Origin: Dysidea avara
Taxonomy: Eukaryota > Porifera > Demospongiae > Dictyoceratida > Dysideidae
Reading direction: 5' to 3'
Length of the DNA stretch: 64,000 nt
NCBI RefSeq assembly: GCF_963678975.1
Contig: NC_089275.1
Location: 18,736,220-18,800,219, forward strand
The notes under the pieces were generated by a model. It saw only the letters and a list, made by a program, of their open reading frames with translations, was not told where the DNA came from and searched no databases. The translations under genes and the position numbers were made by a program. Position 1 is the stretch's first letter. Each line of letters starts with the position of its first letter. Of the stretch, positions 19,575 to 46,106 are shown one piece after another.

Positions 19575-20427
19575 TTTAGGGATCATAGAGATTTGAGTTT
19601 TCCTAGACAAAAAAAAAATCATCCTAAAACCAGTTTCACAACTCCATCCTGGCACCTTGGCAGTATAACCAAGCCCAAAAGTGCCTTCAGTATGACCCTA
19701 AAGGCTTCCAATAAATTGTTACAAAATTTTTATTTATAAAAAATTATTCAATGGAATTTTCTACTGACTAACTGCCTGATCCCTTCAGGCAAGCATAACT
19801 CGATAACGGATGGCTAAGGCTATGAGCTTGATTTTTTCACTGTTCGACGTCGCTTCACCCCGAGACGTGCCTTTTGGCATACCACAGTATGTACAATGCA
19901 CGTGTCATGGGTTTACCTTTTTCCTCCTTTGTGTCCCATTTCTTTTTGCTGACAACCCAAGGTGCCAATTCGTGGTAGCACGATACATGGCTTCCCTACA
20001 GTACGTTGGTAAACGGGAATCGTCCGTATTTCCTTGGTGACTGGATTGATTGCAGAGACGATTCTAACACTGTTCTTTGTTTCTAACGCTGTGTAATGGG
20101 CTTAACATAACTGAAAGCGAAGCGTAATAGCCGCTACACTTTCAAGGCATTGATAGTTGGGGGTGCACAAATTGTCGTATTTTCGTGGTAACCGGATTGT
20201 TGCAGAGGAACTTCCTATATTATTTATTGTCTGTAGCGCTACGTAATGGGCTGAGCATAGCTGAAAGCAAAGCGTAATGGCCACTGCACTTTCATAGCAG
20301 TATTTGATAGCTGGGGTGCACGTTCAGACGAAAACATTAGTTCTGGCACCATCCTTTGTTTTGATGTAGTATGCATGGGTTCACCAATTGTTACAAAAAA
20401 AGTAAACAAACAAGTTTAAGGAAAAAT
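19575..20427. repeat. Dispersed repeat, family R1
   Basis: Begins with TAGGGATCATAG and runs through blocks recognisable elsewhere in the window (CCTTTTGGCATACCACAGTA, CTCGATAACGG). Related copies: about 23895-24600, 28330-28690, 51612-52262, 54598-55440 and 56815-57500. No protein is recognisable. Here it leads straight into a P2 palindrome. Confidence 0.75.
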
Positions 20428-20652
20428 GAGGAATTTTAAATTTGATTAGGGATAATAGAAAAAAAGCAGGGAAACAAGGGAAGTCGCCTACACCTGCAGA
20501 TATACTAGTGAACATTTAATCCCTAATTCAGTCTATACCCATGAATTAGGGATTAAATGTTCACTAGTATATCTGCAGGTGTAGGCAACCTCCCTTGTTT
20601 CCCTGCTTTTTTTTTCTACGATCCCTAATCGAACTTAAAATTCCTAATTTTC
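20428..20652. repeat. Palindromic element, family P2
   Basis: Arms of about 105 bp, from GAATTTTAAATTTGATTAGG through CACCTGCAGATATACTAG, inverted around a spacer of about 15 bp. Half-copies with one arm are at about 22490-22600 and 55430-55560. Confidence 0.85.
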
Positions 20653-20706
20653 CCTTAATGTAATGTACTGTACACACTTTCTTTAATTCACATGTGTGTT
20701 TTGTAG

Positions 20707-21484: not shown

Positions 21485-22480
21485 TGTATCCGTTACATTA
21501 TATTCACTTTATATTGAGTTATGGATGGAGATATACTTTGTGGACTGTTTCCCATATGTAAAATTGTGTGACAGGCAAATCAAAGCTGAAAATAAAACAA
21601 AAATGCTTGTGGTGTGTTTTTGTTGTGGAATTATGCTACCTGCACTATCATTCCAATTATCCCATTTAGTTGTTTCAGGTGTGAATGCTTGTTATTTTTA
21701 AGTTTTAGCCTGTATAATTGGCTGAAAGTGAGCATAGTGGCCACTACAATTTAGAGTCAGTAATTGATAACTGGGGTGCGTGTTCAGATGTAAACTTTCC
21801 ATGTGTTATTGCTCTGGATGGGATTAGGATCCAGATTAATTTTTGAGCCCCATTTATACTACGAAGGCTGAGCATGTTCCAATCTGAAAAAATTTAAACC
21901 CACAATCATAATTTGCATCAAACTAAAGGTTGTTGATTAAGTTAAAAAGGATTGTACTCTCAGGTTATTAGGAATGATAAAGTCTATAAGTGTTGGCGTC
22001 GGTGTTAGTGACTACTCTCAGCTCCATATAGTTAGTTAATGTTGATTTGTACACATATGTGTTTGCTTTGAGTCCTCATGTTGTTCTAGAGGGTGTCTTT
22101 CTGTATCATCGTCTAAACACTTTGTTGTTTCTTCATTCCGTCATTGCAGTCACCATTTTAATTAGCTGTAACTGTCCGTACCTCTATTCCATTTATTAGA
22201 GTTAAATCGAACTGCAAGGTCACAACTGTTTACACGCAGATGTGAGTCACATTGAATTGAACTGGACCACTTCAGGTAGTAGCCCATTCAAATTTGTATG
22301 GCTTAATTCGGCATGTGTTTACACTGAAGCGTTAATCGCCCAGGTTTATTTACGCCACTGTAGCTTGAATTTTGCATCTAGTGTAAATGTGCTATATATC
22401 TCTGGTGCCATCCTTCCTTGTGATGTGGTATGGGGGATTCACCAGTCATAATAAAGTTACAAAAAATGTATAAAGAAAAA
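21485..22480. other. CNOT4 copy A intron, partly R1-like
   Basis: About 21720-21800 and 22385-22480 match R1 sequence near 55250-55440 of copy B. The piece between is copy A-specific and unassigned. The two exons copy B has in the corresponding intron are not found here. Confidence 0.45.
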
Positions 22481-22489
22481 TTAAGAATT

Positions 22490-22610
22490 TTATGTTTGAT
22501 TGGGGATTATAGAAAAAAGTAGGGAAACAAGGGAGGTTGCCTATACCTGCAGATAAACTAATGAACACTTATTCCCTGATTCATGATCAGTCTACGATAT
22601 AAAATTCCTA
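22490..22610. repeat. Half-copy of palindrome P2
   Basis: Carries one arm only (GTAGGGAAACAAGGGAGGTT and CCTGCAGATAAACTA) and ends shortly after the centre. The copy B equivalent at 55430-55560 is also one arm, so loss of the second arm predates the duplication. Confidence 0.65.
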
Positions 22611-22624
22611 ATACTTGTATATTA

Positions 22625-22798
22625 CCATAATTTGCTTTTTTTATTTGTTGATTTTCATATGCAAAACGAGTACAAAAATTTCTTACACAAAAATTGTTAC
22701 ATAAGATCGAATTACTCTAATAGAGCAATCAGTAAATATTTTTGCACGAAAAATTTTATCATAAAATTTTTTTTGCACGAAAATAAAGTGAATTATGG
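22625..22798. mobile_element. TA-flanked MITE with a module copy, copy A
   Basis: Ends CCATAATTTGC and the inverted GTGAATTATGG, flanked by TA, as in Tc1/mariner-type MITEs. The middle contains ATTACTCTAATAGAGCAATC, the recurrent module. Related copies: 55578-55738 and about 27358-27533. Confidence 0.7.
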
Positions 22799-22894
22799 TA
22801 TAATAGACTATCATACAGTACAGTAGTACTGTGTAGTAGTAAGATATATGTACTACATGTATGATGGTTTATTAATGACTTGTCTGTTCTATAG

Positions 22895-23281
22895 CTGGTG
22901 CACAGTACCCACTTCCTCACAACAACACACACTACACCTCATCATATCCTACTCAACAAGTTCAACCTCCACCTTCACTGCCGATGATACCACATGCCCA
23001 GTCACGGCCTACCCTCCCACTGACACACCGCCCTGCAGTAACCAGCTCCAGACATGTCATTGCATCTCCATTTGATATTCCTTTCCTCAGCTATGTCACT
23101 ACCACCATGCAGAGTGGATGGCCTGACTTGATCAATAGTAGTAACAGTAGAGGTGGTTCTGTTAACAGTAGTAGTGTAGGTTGTGTTGGTGGTAGAGCAA
23201 TGATGAGGGAACCAGTGACTGCTTCACATCATCATCAACCACAGCCCACTGTGTTCCTATCCAATCCTGAACCATTTCTAA
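22895..23281 (+). CDS. CNOT4: CNOT4 copy A long tail exon
   Basis: Reads GAQYPLPHNNTHYTSSYP, a Pro/Gln/Ser-rich stretch, then SPFDIPFLSYVTTTMQSGWP and a His-rich end. It is disordered, as in the family tail. Acceptor CTATAG, donor GTATAG at 23282, 387 nt, phase 1 to 1. Nearly identical to 55837-56223, with mostly synonymous or conservative changes. Confidence 0.88.
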
Positions 23282-23299
23282 GTATAGTGTGAGCTTGTG

Positions 23300-23894
23300 A
23301 TGTGTACACTATGTACGTTATAATACACACAAGTGTACACAGGACACACTGTATAATGCTCTTTTGTAGTAAATGTATTGTATGATGTACATTTTTTGAG
23401 TGCAACTTGATGCAGGCACAAAGGTACAGTGCTAGCACTTGGAGGGGTGGGGAGTTACCTTTTGACCAACTAATAGCTTTTATAAATCTTATTAAAAGGG
23501 TATATCGATCTCCTTTAGCATTATGTTTGTCTGTCTGACATGTGAGCAAGAGTTGTGGGTTTCAAACAGCAACTAAAGTTTTCACTACTACACATGTGGT
23601 ACAGCTTAAGCACAAATTGATACAGTGGCTACCTTAAGTTACCCTTGAAGTCGCCCTCAAGGCAACCTGATTGTTACATGATCTTATCAACTATATCAAG
23701 TACTGACAGGTACACTAGTACTGATACCTGCTCTATGGTATGGACTTACCCTACTGAGCAATACTTGCAAGAGTATAAAGTTGTGACCAACAAAAACAAA
23801 AGAGAGGATGAAAGGAATTGAATTGACTACCTCTCAATTAGAAAGCACCTCTAACAAGTGGTCTGTAAAAGAAAACATGAATAATCATACAGTA
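23300..23894. other. CNOT4 copy A intron sequence shared with copy B
   Basis: Matches 56235-56814. No repeat family is identified apart from this duplication. Confidence 0.4.
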
Positions 23895-24600
23895 CTAGGG
23901 ACCACAAAGAAGTAGGTGTGGCCCACTAAATAACATCAGTCAAAAACCAGCCTCAAATTCCCCTGACGACGATGAGGTAGTATGGTCAAGTAAAACTAAG
24001 CCCAAACAAGCTTTCAGATTGACTCGAAACACTTTCAACAAGTTGCTATGGAATTTAAATATATATGTATATATTAATTTTCCACTAACTGACTGAGTAA
24101 CTGACTGATGTCTTCAGACAAGCATAACTCGATAGCGGCTAAGGCTACGGGTTTGATTTTTCACTGTTTGACATCGCTTTGACCTGAGAAGTGCCTTTTG
24201 GCATACTGGAGTATGTACAATGCATTCTTCGTGGACTTACCAGTGTCCTCCTTTGTGTACCATTCATCTTTGCTGACAGCGAAAAGTGTCCATTTTGTGG
24301 TGGCATGTTATGGCTTCCCTTCATAATGGAAACCGTCCATATTTTTCATAGTGGCTATTTTGATTGCAGTGGTGCTTTTTGAACAGTTCTTAATTCAAAA
24401 TGCTGTGTAACAGGTTGAACATAGATGACAACGAAGTATACTGGATACTTCACTTTTCAGACGATAATTAATATAGCTGGGGTATGCGGAGCCATTTCTT
24501 TTGTGGTATGCGTAGGTTCAATGGTCATAATAATTATTTACAAAAAAGTTAACAAACAAGTACACAAAAAAATTTGGAATTTTTAACTACAGCAGGGACC
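23895..24600. repeat. Dispersed repeat, family R1
   Basis: Starts GGGACCACAAAGAAGTAGG and ends GCAGGGACCATAGCAC. Matches 56815-57520 in copy B along its full length. Confidence 0.75.
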
Positions 24601-24607
24601 ATAGCAC

Positions 24608-24955
24608 ATTAGTGTTGGGAGGTATAGCATTTTTTGATCTGGTATTCAGTATTGAGAAAATACCCCGGTATCCTGTATTTCACGGTATCCTGGCAGTCAA
24701 CTAATAATACATTTCAGTCAACATGGTATTGCTCTATTTGTGACAAAGAACAGTCAATTGCAAGTCAAGTGTTAATCTGTAGTTACTATCCAAAGTTGGA
24801 TGTATGCCACAAGTAAAAGTTACTTATGTCTAACAGGTTATAAATACTTGTAACCTGAAACCTCACAGTTTACTGTTAGGCTGGCCTTGTGGTCACATCC
24901 AAACCATTAACACATTACTTAATTAAATGCCAAGACCTGATATCTGGATTCCTTT
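24608..24955. mobile_element. 5' half of a hAT element, truncated
   Basis: Begins TAGTGTTGGGAGGTATAGCA, as does the complete element at 57528-58318. Homology to copy B stops near 24955 and resumes at about 58645, so one deletion removed the right half of the element and the following palindrome arm. Confidence 0.75.
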
Positions 24956-25191
24956 TCTTGCATCCAATGCATTGTGGACAATGATTGATTAGTGTTATAA
25001 GCTGCATTGAAAGTCCACGTGAATGTTGTTTGATGCAAGAATCATTTCAGCACACAAAAGTGGGTGACAGCAATGGACAGACAGACAGACAGCTTTAAGA
25101 GACCTATAGGACTGTTTATCACAGAGCTGGTCACATGTTATTATTTAACCTAATTGTACTGTAGATTATTACACTGGTATAAGGTATTCAG

Positions 25192-25290
25192 CCCCAGTGA
25201 CTAGTAGAACTACTGCTAGTGCTACTCATCAAGTTGATGGTGAACACAACAAGGGAGAATACAACCTGTGGAGTGATAACAGTTCATTTG
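25192..25290 (+). CDS. CNOT4: CNOT4 copy A tail exon
   Basis: Reads PVTSRTTASATHQVDGEHNK then GEYNLWSDNSSFG. Acceptor ATTCAG, donor GTATGT, 99 nt, phase 1 to 1. Copy B's 58870-58968 is the same length with few substitutions. Confidence 0.85.
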
Positions 25291-25500
25291 GTATGTGTCT
25301 GGGTTGGTGTACTTTTGCCTGTAGTTCTACAAGTGCAGAGGTGTAAATCTACAGTTTGATTGTAAATCAGTGTTTGAAACAGTAATTTGAATGTCTGCTT
25401 AAAAAAATATTTATGTTTTGGAAGTTATACTTATTAATTGGGGAGGCTGAATAAGCCACTGTCATACCAAGTGCACTTATAGTATTTCTATATTTCACAG

Positions 25501-25559
25501 GTACTGATTTCAACTTATTTTCATCATATGCTACTGAGTACCACCAGACCATCATCAAG
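25501..25559 (+). CDS. CNOT4: CNOT4 copy A tail exon with GC donor
   Basis: Reads TDFNLFSSYATEYHQTIIK after completing a Gly codon. The 3' border AAG/GCAAGT is the consensus for a GC-AG intron and joins in phase 0 to the last exon. If unspliced, the frame would stop at a TAA 14 codons later, giving an alternative end. Confidence 0.78.
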
Positions 25560-25943
25560 GCAAGTTGTACCATCAAGAGACAAACAGCTACAAGATAACT
25601 GAAATGTTTACTCAGAGAATTTTATGTTTGTATGCAAATGACTGTATATTATGTACAGATGTACTTTGTGACTGAGAACAGTTTTATACAAAACTAAAAA
25701 AATCTGGTTTGTTTTCTGTGCATGGGAGTGTACGAAATTTAGTTTGTGTGTGTGTCTGTCTGCGTGCATGTGTGTTGAGTTACATGGTGAATGACCAAGC
25801 TTTGATAGAGCCAGAGCATCGTTGAGCATGTTGCATGAAGTTGGCTTGTTTTAAATGTGAGTTGTGAGCGTATTAGCATACCATGTGTATGTGTGCGAGT
25901 TTCTAATATAGTGAGATTTTAAATCTCTTTTCTCTTTGTATAG

Positions 25944-26435
25944 GAGATGCAAGGTACGAAATCTTCGAAGAGCTTGGATTTGTGTAGCAATGGTGACTGT
26001 AACGTTCCTCCATCTGGTCTGGAGTTCCACAACACACGACTACTACCAGACAATGCTTCACAACAATCTGCTACTGTCAATCCGTCACCAAATCCTCAAG
26101 CTAAATTCCCTCAACAACTTCAGGGGAGAGAAACTGTGGAACAATCAGCTGTTGGTAAACCAAAACAGAACAATACAGCAAAGTTTACTAGTGGTAATTG
26201 TGTTTCTCAGAGTAACCCACTGACTACAACAAGTGTTCAAGACACCAGTAGACATGTTGGTGCTATAAAGAGTCATAACAAGCCCAACCAAAGTGTCACC
26301 ACTATAATGAACTATTCATCACATCATTACACTGGTCCACACTACAGTAGACTACAAGCAGCATCATCATCATCAGGTAGTTATCAGAGAAACAGTAGAC
26401 ACTCTAATTATCATCAACATCATCACAATACATAG
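25944..26435 (+). CDS. CNOT4: CNOT4 copy A last coding exon
   Basis: Reads EMQGTKSSKSLDLCSNGDC, then a Gln/Asn/Ser-rich tail ending HSNYHQHHHNT and a TAG stop. Acceptor TGTATAG. No folded domain is visible. Copy B's 59604-60101 is two codons longer near its start and otherwise very close. Confidence 0.85.
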   Translation, partial: EMQGTKSSKSLDLCSNGDCNVPPSGLEFHNTRLLPDNASQQSATVNPSPNPQAKFPQQLQGRETVEQSAVGKPKQNNTAKFTSGNCVSQSNPLTTTSVQDTSRHVGAIKSHNKPNQSVTTIMNYSSHHYTGPHYSRLQAASSSSGSYQRNSRHSNYHQHHHNT

Positions 26436-26493
26436 ATCTTCTGGCATATCTGTCAACTTCACATACATTTTTATTATTTCTCAATGAAAATAA

Positions 26494-26499
26494 AATAAA
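26494..26499 (+). promoter_or_regulatory. Poly(A) signal AATAAA of CNOT4 copy A
   Basis: AATAAA about 60 bp after the stop codon. Copy B has AATAAA at 60155-60160 at the equivalent distance. Confidence 0.6.
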
Positions 26500-26559
26500 G
26501 CCTTCAAATATAAAATCCCTCTGGGAGCATTGGTAATAGCAGCCTGTAAAACCTGTTTG

Positions 26560-29100
26560 TGAAAGAACAAATTGAGTAGGTATGCAACAAGAACTATGCT
26601 AATGGATTGACATTAATATTATGTTAACAATAAAAGCCAGTAGAGATGAGAGCATTTTATGTGAACAGACAACAAAATAGTCCCCTTCTTACATAGTAAT
26701 ATATGGTGTTGTTTCCAGTTGCTATAATACAAAGTGCAGCCCCACCATAGTTATTTCTTTGTGCATGTCGGAAACTGCATGATCATTGACATCATTGTCC
26801 ATGTAAACCATATTTACTGAATATAGTGCAACCAGGTATAAACCTCCGAGTTATTTACTCACCCACCCACACATTTATTCTATATCCCATTATGTTCTAC
26901 ATTGTTGATTATGCTTTCATGCCTTGATCTCATTACTATTATTTGTGACCGAATTTTGGAAATGAATGTGAGTGAAATAATTAGAATATTCATGTTTAGT
27001 GGGTTACTATTATGAGCAGAGCAAAGTTATAAAAATATTTCTAGAATTTTAAGGTATTGAGAATGGCTTACAATCAATAACAAGTAGGTTTGCACTGTAA
27101 AGCTTGTTATTTAGTGATTAAATATTTTAAGTGTCAAATGCATCCATGTGGTTTATTTTCCAAAATTCGGTCACATTTACTGCTTTATTGTGGTTATAAA
27201 TGTTTGTGGTGTCTCAAAGCACACTTATAAATAGTAACAAAAATCTGTAATCTGAGTTCACTGTCGTAAAACAAAAATTTCATAAACCCCACTTATTGAA
27301 TATTAGACAGGTCTATCTTCTTTCAGAAAATAATTAGTAAATGTATACATTATTGAGAACCGTAATTTGCTTTATTTTCGTGCAAAAAATTTTTCACAAA
27401 TATTTTCACATGATTTACTTGGATGACCACTCTATTACAGTTGTTTGATCTTGCGTAAAAGTTTTTGTGTAAGAAATTTTTGTACAAGTTTTGATACAAA
27501 ATTATTTTACAACGAAAAAAAGCAAATTGCAATATCTGAAAAACTATATATGTTTTTTGAAAACCTAACAATGTAACTTAAAAACATGTTTTTTTAAAAA
27601 TCTGTTCCTATTAAACGTTGGGCCTAGTGAGAGCTTTCATCTACTACAAAATCATTGCCAATGAAACTGAAAACCATAAATATACAAGTCATGGCATAAT
27701 TTTGTGTGGTTTGCCATGGTAACATGTGCACAAATGTTGTATGATTGTACAAGTTGAGCTGGATCCTGAAAAATAACTAAAAATTAAAAGTGGACTTTTC
27801 TCAACAGAGTTAACATTTCAGCCAACCAGATGATAAGTGGTGACAATAAAGGTGTCAACAACAGGCATGTACAGTTTGGCTTCATTACCAGTTTGGGAAC
27901 AGGCTGTAATGGACACTGTACTTTTATGGCTTCCATATAGGAAATATGGGAAAACTTTGATTGGCTATAATATTGTGTCAACCAAAACAATTTTGAAATA
28001 TTTTTAGTGGAAATGAGCCAAATTTCAAGATCGTGTGTAATTGTGCATCCGTGGGTTATTAAACGTTTTTGAAGATCTAGTATCATAGCTACTATCGGTA
28101 CAGATACATGAGGATAATGATGTACAACTAAACAGAATTAAGGAATCTGGCCATGGAGTAGATCCGAAGTTATGATCAAAAAATTAAACCTTGTCCGGTG
28201 GCCCTATACAACAATGTCTGCAAGAAGTATGCATTATACTGAAAGTCCAGAACCTTACAAATACATTGACATTCGTAAATTCTAAGTTGAGAACTTCACA
28301 ATATGAACTTTATCATACAGTACAATAGTATTGCATAGTAAAGACCACAAAGTTGTGGTCATGGCTCATAACAAAACATTACCCAAAAACCAGTCTCTTT
28401 TTTTTCCCTGACGACAATGAAGCAGTTCTGGTTAGCATAAACAAGCCTTCAGATTGACCTGAAATGCTTTCAACAAGTTGCTATATTATATGGGAATTTT
28501 CTACTAACTAATGTCAAGCATAACTCAATAATGGCTAAGGCTACAGGATTTTTTACTGTTTGATGTCGCTTCAGCCGGACACGCGCCTTTTGGCATACCG
28601 CAGTACATACAATGCGTTCTTCATGGACTTATACCAGTGTCCTCCTTTGTGCCCCATTCATCATTGCTACTATCGTGAAAGGTGTCGATTTTTCAGTATT
28701 GGAGAACTCTAGAACTGTAGGAGTTGGTGAGATTTTTTTTTTAAATTCTGGGGGGTTCATCTGAACATCCAACCCCCCCGTCTATGCCCTTGACGTAGTC
28801 TTGTCCTACCCCCACCTTTTGAAATGAAAATCTTCAGTACAAAGATGGCTGTAAAGGTGACCAAAGGTCAAACCAGAGATGGCACTATAAAAAAAATGAA
28901 TGTCATTAGGAATACAATTACTATATTATGGAAAGTTTCATCACAAATGACACAACTTTCACACTATGCCACTCTCTCCTATCACCAAATTAATTTGTAC
29001 TGCTCTAGAGAAAGTTGTACTTTTAGCAAACATTTCTGATATATGCAAAGTGTTTTAAAGTTGGTTGTGGGGATGAAACATGTGGCATGCTTGTATGTTA
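26560..29100. other. Intergenic repeats, no gene seen
   Basis: 26640-27300 matches copy B on both sides of its composite insertion, and ATAT at 26810-26813 is the empty site. About 27358-27533 is a TA-type MITE related to 22625-22798. 28330-28690 is a truncated R1 repeat. The remaining short frames have no recognisable product. Confidence 0.5.
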
Positions 29101-29772: not shown

Positions 29773-30521
29773 TCAAGTGGTAATAACTTGAAGACGATGA
29801 TTGTAGTGCTCTGTAACAAAGATAGTACCAACACTGTTGACTGCTATACCATGGATGAAATTGAATTGTCGTCTTTGACTTCCTTTTATTCCAAACATAG
29901 TAATCAACTGGTGGGTGGGGCTGAACACTGTGAAGTAGTGGTTGAAAAGAGCATTAGTAATTATATAATGATCAGGGGTAAGGCAAATGGTATATGGATT
30001 ATTATAGTCTATATTCTTAATGAATTTTCCATCTTCACTAAATATAGCTATTCCTTGAACACTCTGGTCAGTCACATACACTTGATCACCATTGTCCAGA
30101 GCAATATAACGTGGATTTCGGAGAATTCGGGAGCCAAAGGTGAAAGAAAAATGATCGTTTTTATCAAATACTTGAACTCTGCAATTATCATTGTCCACCA
30201 CATATAGTAAACCTTTACTATTAAATGTTAGTCCTTGAGGATGATTGAATTGGCCATCTCCACTGCCATAGGAGCCAAACTTTGATAGGTAGTCTCCTTG
30301 TAGAGTAAACTTCTTCACCACATGATCATCATACTCACTAACTGCTATTACATTGTGACCTACAGCTACACCTACAGGATCGTTCAGTTTACTATCTCCA
30401 CTTCCTTGACCAAATGATCTGATCAACTTCATATCTTTATTTAGTATCACTACATCTTTATTGTCTCTGTCTACCATAACAACATCATCATTAGTGGTGG
30501 TGGTAATATCACCAGGACACA
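29773..30521 (-). CDS. TRIM-NHL exon 3: NHL propeller
   Basis: Starts CPGDITTTTNDDVVMVDRDN. Repeated blades follow, with anchors such as LNDPVGVAV, FNHPQGLTF, LRNPRYIAL and FIHGIAV, and a final TIFVTEHYNHRLQVI. Five to six NHL blades can be counted. The acceptor TTTTTCACAG lies inside the terminal inverted repeat of the element that forms the intron. Confidence 0.9.
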
Positions 30522-33500
30522 CTGTGAAAAAGGTGGGATATAAGATGGTATTTCCAGTGGCTTATTGAATACAAATAAGCCTTAATATAAATTCTGTATT
30601 ATACTCATGTTATACTTTAGTATAATCCATACTATACTATTACATATATGGTTTCAGTTTATTTACCACATTACCTGAAATAGCTTATATCTAGTATAAT
30701 GTCCACGCTATACCATCACATATATGGTTTCAGTATGTTTAACACAGTAACTAAAGCCTTACATGTGATTGTTAGTATAATACAGATTATATCAAGCTTT
30801 TTTGTATTCAATAAGCCACTGGAAATACCATCTTATATCCCTCATTTTTCACAGTGACACTGAAACTTCTTCCCTCCATATTGTGTGATCAGTTGACAAT
30901 TTTGTACTTCAATTTTAGTGTAGTCTCTCAATGTTGTTGTCACTCTAAAACAATACACAATTTTGTTAGCCAATTGCAATGTTAAGGCTACCTCAATTAA
31001 AAGATAAAAATTTTTCTATTTCATAGTTCACCAAAATACAAATCAAAATACAAATCATTTTGTGAGGGATAAACTATCAGCAGTTCATACTTTCTACACA
31101 AGCAACAAAATTCTAACAATACATTAATTGTTGAACTGGTGTTTGCTGTTCACTGAAATTCTGGCACTATTGTTAGTACCTTCACAGTGGCTATCACCAG
31201 CTAGCCAAACTCTACACAAAACTTGAGTATGCCAAAATTAATGTATCATTTAATCTTGATGAATGGCAGGTCTTGCAAATATATATAATTTGAAAACAAA
31301 GACCTTTCAAAATAATCACAAATCAACCTTTTGAAATTATCTGCCACAGAAAATATTTGGTGTGAAGAAACTAGTACCATGGGGATCTAAATATTTACTG
31401 ATAGTCCACAATTGTATTACAAGTAGCATAATAAATGATGTCTCTCCTTAGCATTATCAAGACACGTGTGTGTCATGCAGCCAAGAAAGCTGGGGCACCA
31501 CACCGTGAGTATATTGACAGGAAGTAAGAAAACAGCTTTTTACGTCTGCATAGCTCCAAGGCCCCTTCTCCAAAGCATCCCATTTTTGCATTATAGCTGT
31601 CCACCAGGTAGGGTAGGGTGTGCCACACAGCAAATTTGATTAAACTCACAACAGCCATTTGCGAGATATAGGCGTTCAAAGTTTCATTTTAGTTTCTTCA
31701 TTTTTTCTTCTTATGCAGTACGGGGGGCTATAGAGGCTTCAATTTATTTTTGCACACTTTGCAAAAATTGTTATAAAATGCAAACATGTAAATCAATTGC
31801 CTCGATCATTTGTACAAATGAAGAGCATGTAACGGTGGATTCACGTACCAAGTTTGCTGTGAATCTGAGGAATATGGAATATCCAAGGAGTTATGAGTAT
31901 TTATTCACATAAAATAAAGATCAAACTTCTGTCACGGCTACAGGGTAAACCGAATATAGGAATAACTTGAAAATTGGTGTGTAGATAGGCTGATCATCGT
32001 AGCAGTGCCTTGATAGTCTGAAAAGCAATAGAGTTACAGCAACAAAGTTATAAAGTAAAAACCAAAAAAAGTGTAAAATTACAGGATCAAGATACTCTAA
32101 TAGAGCAGTCACCATGGGGTAAAAAAAGTGTACAAAAAATGTCAAAAAAAACTTTACCAGAGTTCGAACCAGGGACCTCCATGCCTAACACCTGCATCCT
32201 TAACCACTGAACCACTGCTACCTTTACTGATCACCTCACGTAATATCTGCTTTATAAAAGAAATTTTCAGTTTAAATCTACTTATAATCAAATGTTTGTA
32301 AACCACACAAAAGCAGCCAAGCTGTGAAAAAAAGGTGCGGCCTTAAAAGCCTGGGTGAAAAAAGATGTGAAATCAAAGGCGGCAGCCAATAAATGGCTGC
32401 AATGATGTTAATGCTAATAAATTTCAACAATACACACAGCCATTATTAAATTTTATTAACATTAACATCATTGCAGCCATTTGTTGGCTGCCGCCTTTGA
32501 TTTCACATCTTTTTTCACCCAGGCTTTTAAGGCCGCACCTTTTTTTCACAGCTTGGTTGCTTTTGTGTGGATATTAATGTGTAATTGCAAGTTCCAAAAC
32601 CAGCCTATGGTTGACCTTGATAATTCCTTTTAACATTTTCCCTTTACTACAGGAATCATCAAAGACTGAGTGGCTATATGAAGAACTGAAATAAGATGAA
32701 TTTTGAAGGTGCATATACCCACAACTGAGCAGATTCAACTCAAACTAGGAATGGGAGATGCCCTACCCTGAGGAAGCTTCCACTACAGAAAATGGTTAAT
32801 TATACTGTTCAAGCACTATGGAGCTATGGATACATGAAAACTTTTTTATTTAGATTCCTTATTATTATTCCCAGGATTACCAGCACCCTGAACTATATGA
32901 CATTGCTCATTCTGAAGAGAGACAAGGAGAGCAAGTCTTCTGTAAAATACAGCACTGAGCAGCATGACCCATATCACCCCTTAATGTTGAAAATACAAGT
33001 GGGGTAAAAGAACCCATCTCAATTTCACTGTCCATACTTTTGTTGTTTCTCACATTCAAAACGTGGATAAACTACAGTGAGGATACTTGGGTACTACGAT
33101 ATGAAGGAGCAATAGCCTTAACTTTGACATTTAAAAAATGCCTTCAGATGTTTGTTTACCTCCCCAGAATCCTGAAGCATAAATGTCTACACGAGCTCCA
33201 TCCTCATTATTAGGTGTTGCGTGTCAAAGGCTGCAATGGATGCATGAAAATGACATTTCCTGGTTCCGTAAAACAAGAGTTGCCCGCCCACACTGGCTGC
33301 ACTTGGCCGCACGACACAGCTGCTTTCATAATATTTGTAGAATGTTCTAGAACAATCTAGATTTTCCATTGGTAGATCTATGAAATTATGAACTTGGCTA
33401 TTGAGTAGATTTTAGCTAGAATTTTCATATATACAGTAGAAACAAAGTGAGGCGATCAGTAGTGACAGCAGTGGCTCAGTGGTTAAGGATTTGGGTGTTC

Positions 33501-36500
33501 AGTGTGGAGGTCCCTGGTTCGAATGCTGGTCAGTAATTTTTTTGACATTTCCCCCCAACATTTTTTATGCAACTTTTTACCTCGCAGTGACTGTTCTATT
33601 ATAGTATTTCGACCCTGTGATTTACAGCTGTTTGGTTTTTGCCTTGTACCTCTGTAGCAGTCAATGCGATTTCACAAAAGGTTTGAGCTATGATGGTTAA
33701 CCTATAATTATGCATACCAATTTTTAAGTTACTCCCATAAATGGTTTACCCTGTAAGCGTGACAACAAGTTGGCCTTTTTTAACGTCCATAGCTCTATGA
33801 ATATTAATTTATACAAAAACAGCCAAGCTGTGAAAAAAGGGTGCAGCCTCCAAAAAATCCCAGGGTGAAAAATCAAAGATGGTGGCCAAGGAATGGCTGT
33901 GATGGTAGGTTAATGGCAAAAAATTTAATAACAACAATTCTTGTGTTGGGATTCGGCAACAAATTCATCTGAATTGTCGTTATTAAAATTTTTGCCATTA
34001 ACCTACCATCACAGCCATTTCTTGGCCACCACCGTTGATTTCACATCCTTTTTCACCCTGGCTTTTTTGGAGGCCGTACCCTTTTTCACAGCTTGGCTGT
34101 TTTTGTATAGATATCACTTCTTTTTGTATTTGTCTACTCCAAAGCCAGCCTGTGGCCAGTGTTGTAGTTCTTTTATTTGTCTTTTTCTGCAGAAATGAGA
34201 AGACATCAAGATCTGAGTTCTATGGATACTTTTTTATGATGCATTTTTTACAAAAATTAATACTGTATGAAAATTATCACATGTCCTCTCTCCTACAGGT
34301 AGACAACTTTGTAGCAGAAATCTCCACAAGGTAACTTGTTTGTTGCTGAATTCTACAGGGTGACTTGTTTGTTGCTGAACTCGCTACAGGGCGATTTGTT
34401 TGTAGCTGAACTCTCTACAGGGTGATTTGTTTGTAACTGAACTCTCTACAGGGTGATTTGTTTGTAGCTGAACTCTCTACAGGGTGATTTGTTTGTAGCT
34501 GAACTCTCTATAGGGTGACTTATTTGTAACTGAACTCTCTACAGGGTGATTTGTTTGTAGCCCCCTCAGAATGATATCCTCAGAATGATATCTTGCTGAA
34601 ATTATCCTTCTTGGGGTACTGTGAAAAAGATCGATATATCCTAATATAATGCTCAAATACCCTAATAGAGCAGTCAAAGTGTTTCATAAAAGTGCTCCTA
34701 AAACTAAAAGATGAAGAAAACAAATTCCTACAGTGAGAATCAAACCACTGACCTCTTACTTTGAAAGCAGGTATCTTTCCACTGTGCTAACTATTTCCAG
34801 GCTATTTTTACTGCTTATACAGTAAATACTGTATATATGTTCATCAACTCTGTAGTTGACAGCTAAAAACTTTGTCAAAAGATGTTTTTATTAACTGCAA
34901 ATAGCCTGTTTTAAGCACTTTTGACTAAAAAAACTTAGCATTTTAGTTGAAATGCTTCAAATTGCACCTATAAATTAATTCTGGTGAATAGACCTGCGCC
35001 TAATATGCCTGCATATAATAGGTCACCAATTTTGTATCAGTAGTAAGGGGCGTACCTATTCTTGATTAGCTAGAAGAAAGCACTAAACTACTAAGAATGA
35101 CAGGTAGTTGGCATTATTATACGAGTGCTGGCTGAATGGAGCTCAAAACTGAACCTCTGAAAGATCGATAGAACGCTCAAATACTCTAATAGAGCAGTCA
35201 GATTGTTTCATGTTAACAATCTGCAGACAGCATCAGGGATTTAACAGCATGATTATCTGCAATTCTGAAACTTATACATCTTATACCAGTGTATCTTCTT
35301 TAAGTCTTTCAACAAACATATTGATATCATTATCCACTAAACTTAGCATGTAGTTATAGCTACAGCTTTAATACACTGATAATTGAAAACTCTTTTGTTA
35401 TACTCCTGATACCTATTTTATGTCTGTTGTAATGGCTATAACCATTATGTGTAAGGTTGAATGCTTCATTTATGGCTAGCTATTGATTAATTAATACTGA
35501 CAAAACTAGCATCTTGAGAATTAAGTGACTATAGCTACAGAAACTAAGTGAGCATTATTATGGAATAATAGGTTAGATAAAAGAATAATAAAAGAATAAT
35601 AGGAGAAAATTTTGGGAATTTCTGGAAAGAATAATAGGTAAAAGTTTGAGCATATTAGGCTCAGGCCTACTGGTGAACTTTTGAGACATTGTGAAAGCTT
35701 AAATGGCTACAGCTTTGGGAGGGCTTTGCCCCCAGACCCCAACTGCATACTCCGGTCAGCCCCCCCCTCACATCAACTACTTCCTCCACCACTGCTGTAA
35801 CACTCTTCACAAAGAAAACTATCCATGCACAACCAGTCTATGGGTAGCTATTCTTGCTTGTGTTTAACATGAGCAGTCATTATTGAGTGTGAGGATTTTC
35901 TCGTGCCATAGACGTAGGCACCCAGTCTCCTAGTGATCTTAATTTGTAACTGTTGTTTATGATTGCAATTAAAAATTATTAATTTACAAAATATATGAAT
36001 GATTACAACATAGCTATGTAGTGGCCATAGGCATAGCAAGATATTTTTAGATAGGGAGGCTCTGCTCCAAGATAAAGCTAATAAATACAGTAGTATTCAA
36101 GACACATGAGCTCAATCCCTCTGGTGGACTGGGGGCATGCCCCACAGGAATTTTAGCCTTCCAAAGTCAATTGAGGGCAATTATTTTCATTGACTGCTGT
36201 AGAACAACTGACTGTTATATTACAGTATTTCAATCTTAAAATCAATAGGCCTTTCGTTTAAGGTAGTGGAATGTTGTGGTTAGACTGTGACGACATAATT
36301 GGTCTATATATGACGTGGCTTCTGGAGTGCAATGTTGCCTTCAATGACTAATACATTACCATTGATATTGGTAGTGTTTGTAGCAGTGCAGCTGCCATAT
36401 AATATTATATTGCTAACAAATTCGTATGAACTGGTAAGCATTTGCAAGTGGTGGATTATTCCTTTCAGTGCTAATTCGAGAGTAATAAGTGAGATTATCT

Positions 36501-39500: not shown

Positions 39501-42500
39501 ATCCTAAACCAATCCAGCTATCTCAACTACACTCCATACTCTTAACTAATAACCAAATGATTTCAAAGATAATGCAACTTCTAGCTAGTACTGTGCTAAG
39601 TCGCTACAATCCATTTTTGTACTGAAGAATGCCTCTAATAAATTAGGTCACTGACCACCAGTAGGCTAGCTGGCTTGTGTTAAGTGTAGCAAATTATTTC
39701 TTGGGATTGTAGCGATTGTGTAGTTAGGAATGCTTAGATGAAATTTTGGCTGAGAAGGATGGTTTTCAGATAAAAGATTTAATGCGTATTCCAATTAACG
39801 ATCACTCTCATGTTAATTTATGTTGTACCCTACAGATTTGTTACAAGTAAGAATAATAGCAATGTTGTAGAACATATTAGCAAACAAATTTCGTTCATTC
39901 CACTGTGGAGTCTTTATAATCTGGCATGCTAGTGCTTACACGTGATTCCAATCGCAAAAATAACACTGTTCCGGCTGATCCGGGTTGTTCCAGCGTTCTG
40001 GGTTTTCCATACTACCCTGCTTTTACCATTCTTACATAACCTTTTTAGGTAATGAGATAGACAAACATGGAATTTCACCTGACTCAAAGAAAACCACCAT
40101 GGTCACCAGAGTATCCAACACTGTAGGATGCATGTCTCACCTTCTTAGGGAAATTGAGAATTTGTGCAATCATGTCTTGTCTGTTAGAAAACAACAACTA
40201 TAACAGAGAGCCTCTGATTGATGTACCATTGCCCAGTCATCGTTGGGAAAATATTGTTGTAAAACTCTTTGAGCTTAGGAATTCTACCTATCTAATAACA
40301 GTTGATTATCACTCCAGAAGTATAAAGATGAATTCAACAGTTTCGTGATACATTTAAAGTCTATTTTTGCAAGGGTTGAGATCATAGGCATAGCAAGATA
40401 TTTTTTAGATAGGGGGGCTCTAGTTTGGTGTTGAAGAGAAAAAAAAAAAAAAAGGTTGACACCTGCTAAGAATGGCTGCCCTCCACTAAATAATATCAAT
40501 TGTATCACTGATAAAGCACATAAAATCCTTATTCACAAGTGAATTGTAACTTCACAGTTTGCTACATTGTTTTTCTGAACATTGTGACTGCTTTATTAGA
40601 GTAACTGACTGCTCTATTAGAGTACCTCGATCTTTTTTGAGTTTACAATCAACAAATCGTAAGGGGGCTCCAGCCCCCCTACCCCTCTGGGTTGCTACAC
40701 CTATGGAGATGGTATCAAAAATGGATATCTACACTATTTCTGAAGCCCTAAGAGGCAATTAAGCACTTGTCAAGCACAATAAGAAGGTTATTGACAAAGA
40801 CTGTGTAGAGTTGCTGTACCCAAATTTCACACCAGCAGAAAGAAACCACCTCAGAGCAAAGCATACTGTACCTATGTGGAGGCTAAAGCAGGCTTCATTA
40901 GCCTATCACCACGTAATGGTTTGCTCAAGTCTGTGTATACGGACAAACATGGGTACATGCACAGATATGCATAGATAAGTACACACACACACACACTTTA
41001 TTAGGAAAGTAGGAACACTCATAGCTTGCCTGCGACTGGCTGTAGGCAAGCACCTGGTTAAAAGTATTAAAAATGTGCCAATACGTGAGGTCACAGATTT
41101 GTACATTAACTTACTTAAATGGACTTCCTGGGATTGGTTTTCCTGCCACTAGTACAGACAAGGTGTGGACACCACCAACCCTGGGGGTATACGAGACTTC
41201 ATAGTGACCACGTCCAGTATCTTTGATTGTAGCTAGTTCAGTAAGGTGAGGTTTACCACAGTAGTGAACTTCAACCTCCATACAATTTGCAACATTTGGT
41301 ACCCCTTGACCATGTGAGTCATTAACTTTAGCAGAAAAGGTGGTCATACAATTCTTCTTAAAAGGAAACAAGCATTTCATGTCACTTACGGTGCACTTTT
41401 GTATATCAATAGGTGTAAACATTCCTAAACAAGATAACCTTTTCTTCACTTGATGACTGCCATAAAATTGTATCTTCTCTTGCTCACAAACTGTTGGATT
41501 TAGATTTGTGTTGCTCTTCATTTCTTTCAGTTTATCTCTTCGCTCCAACATTGATTTCTTCATGGCCAACACATCTTTGCTAATACCTCGTTGTAGTTTG
41601 TCATCAATGAAACTCCAACAGCTCTTCAACTGGCTTAACAAGAAACACAGTTCATCTTCCTGTACTGTTAAGCTTTTATCCTTTCCCTCTGTATCCTGTG
41701 TGATCTGTTGTTGTAACTGTCTCTTTCGTTCATCTAGGACAGCATGCAGGGTATGAAAGGTATCATCCAACCTGTGAAAATTTTCTTCTTTCCTGTTCTT
41801 CACATCTTGTCTTTTACTCTTTACTCCATTGATGGCTCCTTCTACTTCATCTATTAGTTGCTGGATACCAGGAAGAGCTTCCTTTAGTATCTTCTTCTCA
41901 CCATCAACAACATCAGAGATCACATCATAGTCATGGTCCTTGTGTTTCTTTATGATGCAGTCTCGACAGATCAACACATCTTCACACCTGCAGTACAACT
42001 CTAGTGGTTTGGTAGGGTGGATGGGACACATCTCAACCTTCTCTGGTAAGATGGATGGAATATCAGTAGCACTGCCTTTTTTCAGCTCATCCAGTGAGCG
42101 GATTTTGTGTCCGCTAAAGGTTTTCATTTTTCGATGTGCCTTTTCACAAAAATCACACAAGAATATAGCACACTCGCTGCACGACGACGTTGCCACTTCT
42201 CCATCTTCACAACTCTGACAGATGGGCGTGACCTTCTTACTCTTTGCTTGTTCTTGTAGACGCACGATCTCCACCAGACGAACAACTGAAAAATGCGATG
42301 GTAACTCTTCTACAGCACGTGGAGTAGATAGCGGAACCTTTCCTCTGCATAGTGGACACTCAAGCTCACGTTTCGAAGCCTCCAAGTAGGGCAATCGTCC
42401 CAACCATTCTTTAAGGCAGCCAGTACAAAACGAATGAAGACAAGGGAGTATCTTGGGGTCATTCAGGAGATCTTGACAAATTGCACAAGTCAGCTCTTCT

Positions 42501-42526
42501 TTAACCTTTTCCCAGTTAGTCGCCAT
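29773..42526 (-). CDS. TRIM-NHL protein with filamin repeat, three exons
   Basis: Exons on the minus strand: 42526-41115, 30944-30853 and 30521-29773, giving 750 codons plus stop. Domain order: RING (residues 14-61), two B-boxes, a coiled coil, an Ig/filamin repeat, then NHL beta-propeller repeats. This is the TRIM2/3/71 architecture. These proteins act in the cytoplasm as E3 ligases and, through NHL, as RNA or partner binders; which applies here cannot be told. The exon 1/2 join is AA/A in phase 2 and gives SPFKVTTTLRDYTKIE. Intron 1 is about 10.2 kb and holds the gap; intron 2 is a palindromic transposon. Confidence 0.88.
30520..30856. mobile_element. CACTA-like palindromic MITE forming an intron
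   Basis: Ends CACTGTGAAAAAGGTGGG and the inverted TTTTTCACAGTG. Arms of about 60 bp are nearly identical, with AGATGGTATTTCCAGTGGC in both. ACA flanks both sides (30517-30519 and 30857-30859), a 3-bp target duplication. CACTG ends with a 3-bp duplication fit the CACTA/EnSpm superfamily. On the minus strand GTGAAA at one end and TTCACAG at the other are used as splice donor and acceptor of the TRIM-NHL gene. Without the element the exon would read KKFQCPGD in frame. Confidence 0.85.
30853..30944 (-). CDS. TRIM-NHL exon 2
   Basis: Acceptor GTTTTAG. Reads VTTTLRDYTKIEVQNCQLIT then QYGGKKFQCH and ends in phase 1 before GTGAAA. RDY plus YGGKKF is the link between filamin and NHL seen in TRIM-NHL proteins. 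It joins exon 1 without a frame change. Confidence 0.82.
31451..32239 (-). mobile_element. tRNA-headed retroposon with conserved 3' body
   Basis: Minus strand, 5' to 3': a tRNA-like head with A-box (GGTTCAGTGGTTAAGGATGC) and B-box (GGTTCGAACTC) at about 32239-32165; the module (GACTGCTCTATTAGAG) at 32110-32086; a body of about 600 bp including GGTTTACCCTGTAGCCGTGA; and a terminal hairpin GACAC-ACAC-GTGTC followed by TTGAT at about 31474-31455. The same body, module and hairpin recur at 62276-63088 behind a different head. Confidence 0.75.
32303..32570. repeat. Palindromic head element, copy 1
   Basis: Arms run CCACACAAAAGCAGCCAAGC to GCAGCCAATAAATGGCTGC and back in reverse, with a loop of about 35 bp. 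Related to 33812-34117 and 60501-60831. The arms carry CTGTGAAAAA and TTTTTCACAG near their outer ends. Confidence 0.85.
32571..33440. other. TRIM-NHL intron 1, repeat tails
   Basis: 32571-32690 is the tail that follows the palindromic head in other copies, with CCCTTTACTACAG. About 33180-33330 resembles, in reverse, a decayed retroposon body (GGCCGCACGACACAG). I see no gene. Confidence 0.4.
33447..33810 (+). mobile_element. tRNA-headed retroposon, truncated body
   Basis: tRNA-like head with GGCTCAGTGGTTAAGGAT and B-box GGTTCGAATGC (33516-33526), then a module variant GACTGTTCTATTATAG at 33591-33606, then body sequence to GGTTTACCCTGTAAGCGTGA. The 3' part ends where a palindromic head begins. 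The head lacks a full acceptor stem, so it is not a tRNA gene. Confidence 0.7.
33812..34117. repeat. Palindromic head element, copy 2
   Basis: Inverted arms of about 135 bp, from ACAAAAACAGCCAAGCTGTG to the reverse ending GGCTGTTTTTGTATAG. Followed by a pyrimidine-rich tail ending TTTTTCTGCAG and then a 31-bp minisatellite. Confidence 0.85.
34310..34570. repeat. 31-bp minisatellite, short array
   Basis: About eight units of GTAGCTGAACTCTCTACAGG plus GTGATTTGTTT. The same unit forms the long array at 61000-62275, also just downstream of a palindromic head. Confidence 0.9.
34620..34812 (-). mobile_element. tRNA-headed retroposon, short copy
   Basis: The minus strand has a tRNA-like head (TAGCACAGTGGAAAGATACC, B-box GGTTTGATTCTC), a linker, then the module near 34675-34620, where it ends. 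The head differs from those at 32165 and 33470, so a second tRNA ancestry is possible. Confidence 0.6.
34813..37950. other. TRIM-NHL intron 1, no exon recognised
   Basis: Contains a module copy at 35163-35200 and fragments of high-copy repeats near 36010-36230 (ATAGGCATAGCAAGATAT). Overlapping open frames on both strands at 36330-37040 reach about 98 codons; none has a recognisable domain. One may be a gene remnant, but I cannot support it. Confidence 0.35.
37955..38570. repeat. Tandem duplication, about 420-bp step
   Basis: About 37955-38175 and 38378-38570 match (CTACTTCAATT, GTAAAGTGTGGG, GCTAGCTAGTAGGC). The second copy is preceded by two module copies at 38293-38352. Confidence 0.75.
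39048..39247. other. Assembly gap of 200 N
   Basis: Exactly 200 N, a conventional gap length, so the true distance is unknown. Frames that cross it are artefacts. Confidence 1.
39276..40019. mobile_element. DNA transposon fragment with long inverted ends
   Basis: Ends of about 85 bp are inverted: GAGTATGGAAAACTCGG at the left, the reverse near 40000 at the right. Both contain GCGATTGGA(G/A)TCACGTG. CTTTTAC flanks both sides (39269-39275 and 40020-40026). The first two bases at the left may be lost. No transposase frame. Confidence 0.7.
40045..40382 (+). pseudogene. Ty3/Gypsy pol remnant
   Basis: Reads FLGNEIDKHGISPDSKKT, the RT thumb (family FLGHVIDxxGISPDPxK), and shortly after PLIDVPLPSHRWENIVVKLF then YLITVDYHSR, the integrase core start around its first catalytic aspartate. 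The two pieces are too close together, so RNase H and the zinc finger are deleted. Frame-broken and non-functional. Confidence 0.7.
40383..40705. mobile_element. MITE inserted in the Gypsy remnant
   Basis: Inverted ends CATAGGCATAGCAA and TTGCTACACCTATG, flanked by GAGAT at 40378-40382 and 40706-40710, a 5-bp duplication. Carries two module copies (GACTGCTTTATTAGAG and GACTGCTCTATTAGAG) at 40585-40632. The superfamily is unclear. Confidence 0.7.
41115..42526 (-). CDS. TRIM-NHL exon 1: RING, B-boxes, coiled coil, filamin
   Basis: Starts MATNWEKVKEELTCAICQDL. An in-frame extension upstream exists, but this is the first ATG. The RING has CAIC, CLHSFCTGC and CPLC. B-box 1 runs CQSCEDGE to HRKMKTFSGH, B-box 2 runs CPIHPTKPLELYC to KKHKDH. 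A Lys/Glu/Gln-rich coiled coil covers about residues 210-350. The filamin repeat ends VAGKPIPGSPFK. The exon ends in AA at 41115, followed by the donor GTAAGT. A TAA two bases later would end the protein without splicing, leaving no NHL domain. Confidence 0.92.
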
Positions 42527-42577
42527 GTTTCTATTGTTAAGTTGCTTGCATGCAGCTGCAGCAATAACTGTAACTAA

Positions 42578-43696
42578 GGCCACACCAAGTCAAACCTTAG
42601 TTTCTGGTCACCCGCCCGCATGGTAAACCTGAAACCCTAGTTTATGAGGACTATTATTAATATTACAGGTGCTTAAGTGCACGTGACCCAGCAAGACACT
42701 TATTTTTTACTGCAAAAGATCGATATACTCTAATAGAGCATTCAGGGATTCCAATAGAGCAGTCACACTACTCTTAACTCTAATATTAGGTATATATTAG
42801 GTATATATGCCACACTAATAAAATGTTTCTAACTATAGCTAGTTTTGTCCTTGATTATATAGCTGTTCAGATTATAACTGTTACTAAAGCTTCTGTAACC
42901 AAAGTAATTTCAGTAGCATTAACTACTAGTCCATGCAGATGGGCCATAGCTTTAACTTTATAATTCAAATGTAGTCCTCTAATGATTAGTCTAATTCCTT
43001 ATCACTGAACACTACAGGGGTATGGAAAGCCGGCAACATTCGGTGAGCTTAAACTTAAACTTTTCCATAACTAAAATTAGATTGGCAAGTAGAAACCCTT
43101 ATAGTTTAAACATTCCCAGATGATCACTAAAAAACAGTAGTCTGGAGCACTCAATGACTCAAAACTTTGACAGTTACTTTTCTCAAGGTTACTGAATAGA
43201 AGGCTGGAAACACATAGCTAGTGGGCTAAGACTTTACATTTGAATGAAGAATTTCTGATGTGAAAATAGAAGTTAAATTTCATTGTGTATCATGATCATT
43301 TGAACAACTTAGCTATAAGTCATAGTAATACTTTCCTGACATAGCTAATGAGACATTTATTTCACTTGGAAAGCATAAGTAGCTACATGAGCAAAACATT
43401 TCCTATAGTATATTCTAAATAAATAAATAAATATATACTTAAATGCTATACATCAGTGTATAGCTAGCCATGATCCATCAACAACTTTCCTAGTGCATTT
43501 TTTGCCGAAGCACAACTACTTATGTTGTTGGTTAAGTATAAAATCAACATGAATTTGCTAAATTGAGCAAATGATAATACCATACAGTATATTGTCACAG
43601 TAGAGTCTATAGTCCTGAAGTCCTGATCATCCGCCCGCCCGCATCTATTTGTAGGCTTGGGAGTGACCAGAAACTAAGGTATGACTTGGAGTGGCC
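42578..43696. mobile_element. Harbinger-like element at the TRIM-NHL 5' end
   Basis: Ends GGCCACACCAAGTCAAACC and the inverted GGTATGACTTGGAGTGGCC, continuing in CCTTAGTTTCTGGTCAC, flanked by TAA at 42575-42577 and 43697-43699. TAA with such ends fits PIF/Harbinger. The left end is 52 bp upstream of the TRIM-NHL start codon, so the gene's leader and proximal promoter must lie in or beside it. Two module copies at 42719-42766. Confidence 0.75.
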
Positions 43697-43886: not shown

Positions 43887-43941
43887 GTAAGTGTTATATA
43901 GTTTCCAAGAGATAGTTTCCTCCTATATGGAAGAACGGTTA

Positions 43942-44338
43942 TGCACCTATCAATTTTAGGCCCCTACCCCCCAGTACGGGCCATGTGGGGATTTGGCACC
44001 CTGCAAGAGCAATAACCCCACTACTGGGGCCTAAGTGTTTGTCTAATCATAGATAGTATATACTACGTACCGTAGTATATAATATCTATGGTCTAATCCC
44101 CTACGTAGCTACCCCCTTTATTCCCCGAGGTATTCCCCCACTCCATGATCAACCTCGCTTCGCTGGCTAAGGAGCAACGTCACGTGATTTAACTAAATAT
44201 AGCTACACAATTCGATTGTTATAAAAAATGCTTATGTCAAAAGCCCCACTACTGGGGGTAGCTTTGTAGGTGAACCCCCGTTTAATCCCCCTATGGATCC
44301 CGTACTGGGGGTACTGGCGGTTACAATTGATAGGCGCA
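43942..44338. mobile_element. Harbinger-like MITE, copy B
   Basis: Orthologue of 6680-7036 with TTA flanks at 43939-43941 and 44339-44341. It has itself received a 43-bp palindrome at 44048-44090. Confidence 0.65.
44048..44090. mobile_element. 43-bp palindromic insertion
   Basis: Near-perfect palindrome, CATAGATAGTATATACTACG to its reverse, flanked by GTCTAAT at 44041-44047 and 44091-44097. Copy A has a single GTCTAAT. A very small element with a 7-bp (possibly 8-bp) duplication. Confidence 0.85.
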
Positions 44339-44341
44339 TTA

Positions 44342-45205
44342 TGCCAAATATAGGAGTTTAAAACCAAATTCAAATATTCAAATTATCCCACTATGGACAT
44401 GTGGCTGTGTTGTGAACATACTCCTGTCTTGATTCCGAGCTTGATTCCGAGCTTGATTCCTTTTAATATAGTAAGGTGATTCGGGATGATCACGTCGACT
44501 CGGTGGACGGAGTTTGGAAGCATTGAGTCGGTTGACATGAGGAATACTTGAATGATAACTGATCATTACGAGTATGAAGCACCAGCTAAAGATCCCAGGA
44601 GAGAAGCAAATCTTATTTCAAGGCTGTTCTTTGGGTAAGCCACTATACATTTAGACTGGGCAGGGGGGGGGTACTAACTAACTACAGAAACTGTTAACTT
44701 GCTGTAGTGTACCTACCCGCATTGCAGTAAAGTGTACAGAGCAGTCACGTATAGTGTTTTAAAATACCAAAACTATCTTGGAAAGCGTTATCTTCTGCAT
44801 CATCAAAATCCAAAAGGATTTCCTTATTAGCAATGTTGATGTCATAATCTGGTTTCAGCTTTTTAAACATTTTGAGTGAGTATCAACAAAGCCTTACCTA
44901 TCAAGTGTTCATTTTGATGGCTGAGCAGTGCCCTAGTCCTACCACATGCCATGTACTATCTGGTAATATTATCAAGGCATGCAACATTTGCGTATGGAAA
45001 GTAGTGACAACCTCCAATAAGACATCAGCCTCAAACCACTGCAATTCTTGAAAGGGTGACTGAAATAATAGCATACTGCCTGTCACAGCCAAAACTATAT
45101 AGGCATCTAAACTCACTAATTTGTCAATTGCATCAGAATGTGTCTGACCAGATGAGTTAGGTTCTATGCACTCCTTAATCAAAGGAAAGGATGCAATAAT
45201 CAAAC
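44342..45205. other. Spacer shared with copy A, no gene
   Basis: Equivalent to 7040-8464 without the hAT insertion. A serial open frame on the minus strand at 44901-45203 is also present in pieces in copy A and has no recognisable product. Confidence 0.4.
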
Positions 45206-45830: not shown

Positions 45831-46106
45831 CTAATACAACAGTCATATATGATAGAACAGTTACAAGTTACATTGTTATGGTAGACATATTTATGTAAGA
45901 AAAAGAAGCAAGCACAATACATTATTGCTCTAAAGGAGACAGATGCCCCTCAGCAACAGCAAGGTTGATAGCTGGAGGTACAAGAAGTGATGGTGTCTGC
46001 CTTCCCCATACCTACAGATGTGGAAAATACAAGTGGACTGATACAAGTTACATTGTAGCTAGCTGTGCCACAACAAAAAAAAACTAAACAAAGTAGTATC
46101 TTTAAA

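Follow-up and report, generated by a model that had tools for sequence, protein, structure and literature searches.

The window analysed here, a 64-kb stretch of the Dysidea avara genome, contains a gene of the RING/B-box/filamin/NHL (TRIM71-like) type on the minus strand. Exon 1 (41115 to 42526) runs from the likely start codon, an ATG that we infer, through the RING domain, the B-boxes and the filamin repeat to a native donor, AA/GTAAGT. These domains lie in a 491-aa minus-strand frame (41117 to 42589) and the canonical donor follows after 41115. Exon 2 begins after TTTTAG at 30944 (TTTTAG/AGTGAC) and is divided by a mobile element, with a portion before it (VTTTLRDYTKIEVQNCQLITQYGGKKFQC; 30857 to 30944) and a portion after it (29773 to 30519) that encodes NHL repeats as far as the stop codon at 29773 to 29775. 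The 262-aa minus-strand frame ending at 29773 matches the NHL repeat family (Pfam PF01436) with an E value of 1.2e-21. The domain order and the exon junction (GSPFKV.TTLRDYTK) are common to the named D. avara TRIM71-like proteins P0121, P0122 and P0123, so a preliminary description of this DNA was right to call it TRIM-NHL coding sequence. Apart from the element within exon 2, the gene is intact.

No protein record of the host gene was recognised among the 120 matches listed for each protein search. The 510-aa record P0241, from a different contig, matches exon 1 at 98%, but NHL is not among the domains listed for it. NHL exons are numerous in the sponge: with 150 of 650 candidates scored, its own genome gave 281 matches, and the best of them lie mostly in C4 at 18.1-20.5 Mb and in C1 at 48-58 Mb.

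The element is a palindromic, non-autonomous MITE of the CACTA type, 337 bp long (30520 to 30856, no strand assigned). Its terminal inverted repeats occupy 30520 to 30580 (plus) and 30796 to 30856 (minus); each arm is 61 nt long, the two are 95% complementary, and the element as a whole aligns to its own reverse complement with 72% identity. Both ends carry the 12-bp tip CACTGTGAAAAA. The target-site duplication is ACA, which reads TGT on the coding strand, and its two copies at 30517 to 30519 and 30857 to 30859 abut the element directly. On the coding (minus) strand the ends of the element read CACT/GTGAAAAATG and CCTTTTTCACAG/TG. The inverted CACTG/CAGTG ends, the ACA duplications and the GTGAAA and TTCACAG motifs, by which the inverted repeat was said to supply both a donor and an acceptor, had all been reported in the preliminary description, with coordinates that are right to the base. 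As RNA the element forms one long hairpin of -152 kcal/mol on the coding strand (shuffle mean -65), and for either strand folded singly the energy is 17 s.d. lower than for dinucleotide shuffles. A pattern of the arm matches the genome 659 + 658 times, and its reversed form 0 + 0 times. With this fold and these counts, chance can sensibly be set aside as an explanation of the palindrome.

There is no second copy of the element in the 64-kb window. Scans of the window for Rfam families and tRNAs returned nothing, and a 24-mer taken from the arm had no exact match in the viral and prokaryote contig collections. The window does hold other long palindromic MITE-like elements, including those at 14327-14574, 20416-20658, 32303-32570 and 60501-60830, whose printed ends do not have CACTG tips. 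It also holds large direct duplications, about 88-91% identical and 33-37 kb apart (6650-10388 with 43912-47151, and 22397-26816 with 55340-60505), as if it spanned two units of a tandem array. A diverged direct-repeat array at 61001-62259 is also similar to 34307-34561, and at 3-4357 on the minus strand there are long frames that by eye resemble a retrotransposon polyprotein.

The insertion site is uninterrupted at the DNA level in all 11 of the closest paralogue exons, ten of which are on the same chromosome as the gene. The target TGT is present once in five of them, which read TTTCAGTGT/CCT; among the others the codon at the site is TGG in four and AGG in two. This establishes an insertion with a 3-bp duplication at the DNA level. 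The preliminary description had proposed to look for the intronless state in orthologues of related species; here it is seen in paralogues, and none of the 11 exons has an unrelated intron at the site. At the protein level the alignment crosses the site in 119 of 120 listed homologues (454 found), the exception, P0050, beginning beyond it. These proteins are mostly frames called from genomic DNA, a practice that favours uninterrupted ones, and the six-frame search of the sponge's own genome is therefore the better test. There, with 150 of 650 candidates scored and three partial matches of at least 60% set aside, 27 near-full-length matches were listed, at 61-80% identity; their frames are free of stops and span 278-749 aa, in comparison with 262 for the host exon.

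The element differs from a sister copy, L003, at none of its 337 positions and from another, L002, at one. Because another copy is identical across the whole length, the insertion is young. That a CACTA-type MITE entered this coding exon recently is firmly supported.

The family to which the element belongs was examined in the 550.8 Mb (108 contigs) of the sponge's own genome. A 361-base query gave 1012 first-look candidates, and the 40 that were scored, the studied copy among them, are all full-length and 95-100% identical. The arm pattern used for the genome-wide count above has 34 places, three of them free, and allows up to two mismatches. One element yields one or two matches to it, and we therefore estimate some 660 to 1300 elements, that is, a multicopy family of several hundred copies or more. 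The 70 loci taken for study gave 68 parsed copies and, after removal of four repeats, 64 distinct elements, of which 58 have perfect 3-bp target duplications; some of the other six are truncated or mis-parsed. Of nine loci fetched later, eight have 3-bp duplications and one was unparsed. The sample is biased towards the element's own subfamily, since its first 40 copies were those closest to the query, and the remaining 30 loci and the nine later ones all come from chromosome C1. Median pairwise divergence among 57 copies is 4.5%. The tip CACTGTGAAAAA is exact at one end in 50 of 58 copies and at the other end in all 58, and GT..AG is kept on both strands in 56 of 58. One 1,054-bp member (L048:481-1534) has TAG duplications and consists of two MITE parts about 720 bp apart, and this copy has probably been split by another insertion.

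Read without splicing, the host frame continues as FQCHCEK and is then closed by a stop, four codons inside the element. The ends of the element predict a 331-nt GT-AG intron on the minus strand (30522 to 30852), with the donor ACT/GTGAAA at 30852 and the acceptor CCTTTTTCACAG ending at 30522. Its removal would give FQC-HLC-PGD, whereas removal of the element and one TGT gives FQCPGD, also in frame; the residues of both products had been given correctly before. A gene spliced in this way is predicted to encode 750 residues. Using approximate metazoan weights, the tip acceptor scores 4.5 and ranks first among 41 AG sites. The tip donor scores -2.3 and ranks 12th among 33 GT sites, in comparison with 4.0 for the native donor of exon 1; it lacks G at both -1 and +5, and we regard it as weak. 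The tip pair is nonetheless the best-scoring of the 53 frame-restoring pairs among 882 GT/AG pairs, the 52 others having been considered as intron boundaries and set aside on their lower scores. The native acceptor of exon 2 scores -4.8, below the tip acceptor, so these weights are rough.

The 9 nt that tip splicing would leave in the message follow from the structure of the ends. The CACTGT tip places GT at positions 5-6 on either transcribed strand, and the mirrored end places AG two bases from the edge. Whichever way round the element lies, what remains is four plus two tip bases and the 3-bp duplication, and a splice at the tips would therefore always keep the frame. Enumeration of all 64 possible duplications shows that the residue introduces a stop in just one of the phases, and there only if the duplication starts with A (16 of 64). 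A script that follows the frame across the tips was run on eight loci; five qualified on frame, and all five stay in frame with no stop. The rule is arithmetic on the sequence and no proof of splicing, which is predicted. Nor is the open frame behind the element evidence for splicing, because the insertion is too young.

Our preferred reading, held tentatively and with somewhat less than even confidence, is that the CACTA MITE that recently inserted into exon 2 of the TRIM71-like gene is spliced out at its tips in at least some transcripts. The non-autonomous element, which duplicated the 3-bp target TGT, would have entered the exon by cut-and-paste. The spliceosome would then take as its donor the GT that lies four bases into one tip, and as its acceptor the AG that lies two bases into the other. 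The hairpin, which may bring the ends of the element together, would perhaps assist. The 331 nt would be excised from at least part of the transcripts, leaving CACT, TG and one extra TGT, and we propose that some full-length protein is still made because this 9-nt residue (HLC) is in frame. The splice sites would be a by-product of the tip recognised by the transposase and would not have evolved for splicing.

A substantial possibility, to which we also give a little under an even chance, is that the element is a recent disruptive insertion. It would be retained in the transcript, or spliced through stronger internal donors, to give a null or truncated TRIM-NHL copy with a stop a few codons in, and the allele would possibly still be segregating. 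Several observations are consistent with this: the stop four codons into the element, the weakness of the tip donor, the great youth of the element, and the failure to recognise a full-length product among the listed protein matches. The donors at 30762 and 30674, inside the element, outscore the tip donor and their use would keep the early stop. There are also tens of paralogues, and loss of the gene could be tolerated because many of these are close. On the other hand, the best-scoring acceptor of the region falls exactly at the tip, the tip pair is the best of the frame-restoring pairs, and maize reportedly provides a precedent for a CACTA element of this kind.

It is improbable that the family as a whole is a true introner family, in which the MITE would spread as introns through sponge genes with its ends maintained for splicing. 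The retention of GT..AG on both strands in nearly all copies and the frame-keeping 9-nt residue in every orientation are what such a family would have, and the host is aquatic, like most of the introner groups in PMC9860276 (main text). However, the sampled copies are not enriched in open frames. With a minimum frame length of 150 aa, the empty site is within an open frame in 5 of 58 copies and 33 of 348 control points; with a minimum of 200 aa the figures are 4 of 58 and 19 of 348; the control points lie 250-450 bases from the site, six per locus, and hence are not independent. In a domain scan of 65 flank pieces from 28 copies with a joined frame of at least 60 aa, NHL repeats appear in L001, the studied element, and reverse transcriptase in L015 and L027; the L015 frame with reverse transcriptase also has a SAND domain. 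Apart from that SAND domain, L001 is the sole case of a host-gene domain among the flanks, in a scan that would miss short exons with no domain and that covered the loci before the nine later ones. Among the 58 + 8 duplication-bearing copies sampled, from a family with several hundred more, L001 is alone in having a host exon that can be recognised. Since there is no enrichment in open frames and one host-exon copy in the sample, we see no sign of intron-making by the family as a whole, and its status as an introner is not demonstrated.

Further copies that fall in long frames were considered and set aside. L003 has a frame of 273 aa, with no Pfam family in the piece scanned; L015 and L027 are reverse-transcriptase frames; L066 has 163 aa and no family; and L084 has 139 aa within short flanks. 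In L015 (1280-4337, minus strand) a 906-aa SAND and reverse-transcriptase frame is interrupted by the same MITE, with a TTA duplication.

A further argument against maintenance of the ends for splicing is that transposase-bearing relatives share the tip, so that transposition alone explains its conservation. The GT and AG of the tip are most simply explained as part of the end recognised by the transposase. CACTA (EnSpm) transposons have terminal inverted repeats that start CACTR, and both ends of the element do so; its target duplication is 3 bp, as in CACTA elements, and the empty site in the paralogues agrees. Transposase_21 (PF02992) has 101 matches in the sponge's own genome, only the last listed falling under the cut-off, whereas 14 control genomes have none. 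A pattern made of the tip CACTGTGAAAAA and, three places further, any base except G occurs 224/227 times, against 62/56 for a control pattern. Among the 100 places listed for this pattern, all on C1 and C2, two lie about 2 kb from Transposase_21 matches and have the same 16 letters; a third has those letters and no listed Transposase_21 match nearby. The two relatives with a nearby match open with CACTGTGAAAAA, carry Transposase_21 at E values of 7e-20 and 6e-16, and are 95% identical over 5,089 aligned columns that start exactly at the tip, with flanks that differ. Their left end shares the 12-bp tip with the MITE arm and 78% of 32 bp (E 0.025); a search for their right terminus did not find it. 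The assignment of the element to CACTA is well supported, though short of certain, and among the features tested (CACTR tips, 3-bp duplications, a palindromic non-autonomous form, and relatives within this genome that have Transposase_21 and the tip in common with it) it does not differ from CACTA/EnSpm MITEs.

The CACTGTG tip also resembles the Transib/RSS heptamer, and it fits the Transib consensus CACWRTG. Transib elements make target-site duplications of 5 bp, however, whereas 58 of the 64 distinct elements of this family have duplications of 3 bp, and the tip is shared with elements that carry Transposase_21. We have therefore rejected a Transib/RAG-like identity, which is very improbable. 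The idea that the intron position is old, a MITE having replaced or landed in a pre-existing intron, has next to no chance of being right, since all the fetched paralogue exons are uninterrupted exactly at the site, the models P0121-P0123 read through it, and the target duplication is perfect and in coding sequence.

The preliminary description had gone on to read the locus as a recent intron gain by a CACTA-like MITE. Two parts of this reading stand, namely the recent exonic insertion (from the empty sites and the identical sister copy) and the CACTA-like family (from the 3-bp duplications and the tip shared with transposase elements). The third part, the intron itself, has a donor ranked 12th of 33 and is a candidate only. 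In summary, the observation is confirmed, its interpretation is half confirmed, and the claim overall is partly supported.

Intron gain in animals is rarely caught in the act. If the element is spliced, this would be a newborn intron in a sponge whose neighbouring paralogues still show the empty site; if it is not, we are dealing with a young transposon insertion of the ordinary kind. The case also suggests a rule by which genomes could be scanned, namely that an element with CACTGT tips and a 3-bp duplication should always leave 9 nt. A broader proposal, which we put forward as speculation and consider rather unlikely, is that CACTGT-tipped CACTA MITEs are ready-made, orientation-independent and frame-neutral introns, that in this sponge, with its hundreds of copies, this lets insertions into exons survive as introns, and that the TRIM71-like gene is an example at birth.

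Among the closest known cases is the dSpm form of En/Spm in the maize A2 gene, for which a 1990 report by Menssen and co-workers is said, by its title, to describe splice sites at the termini and a novel intron. Going by that title, both are CACTA elements with terminal splice sites, but the intron is real in maize and predicted in the sponge. The plant CACTA tip, CACTACAAGAAAA, lacks GT at positions 5-6, in contrast with the sponge CACTGT tip, which gives GT and AG symmetrically. None of the titles listed by literature searches concerns introners in sponges; four of the papers listed contain both words. A survey that covered 3,325 genomes found introners in only two groups among animals and land plants together, both of them animals, and its main text has no mention of sponge, Porifera or Amphimedon (Gozashti et al., 2022; PMC9860276). 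As set out there, introners are non-autonomous DNA elements with terminal repeats and a target duplication, inserted in exons and with both splice sites internal; this element has the same make-up, with splice sites that are predicted. In the Aureococcus introner, too, both sites lie within the element and the addition is a whole number of codons, 12 bp as against 9 in the sponge (PMC9860276, main text). Introners differ in forming families of many similar introns (same source), whereas here there is one predicted candidate and a sample with no coding bias. The introner elements of Amoebophrya, as outlined in PMC7789003, are many and lie among non-canonical introns, whereas ours is a single case with canonical GT-AG; the two are alike in having inverted and short direct repeats at their ends and a hairpin proposed to join the exons.
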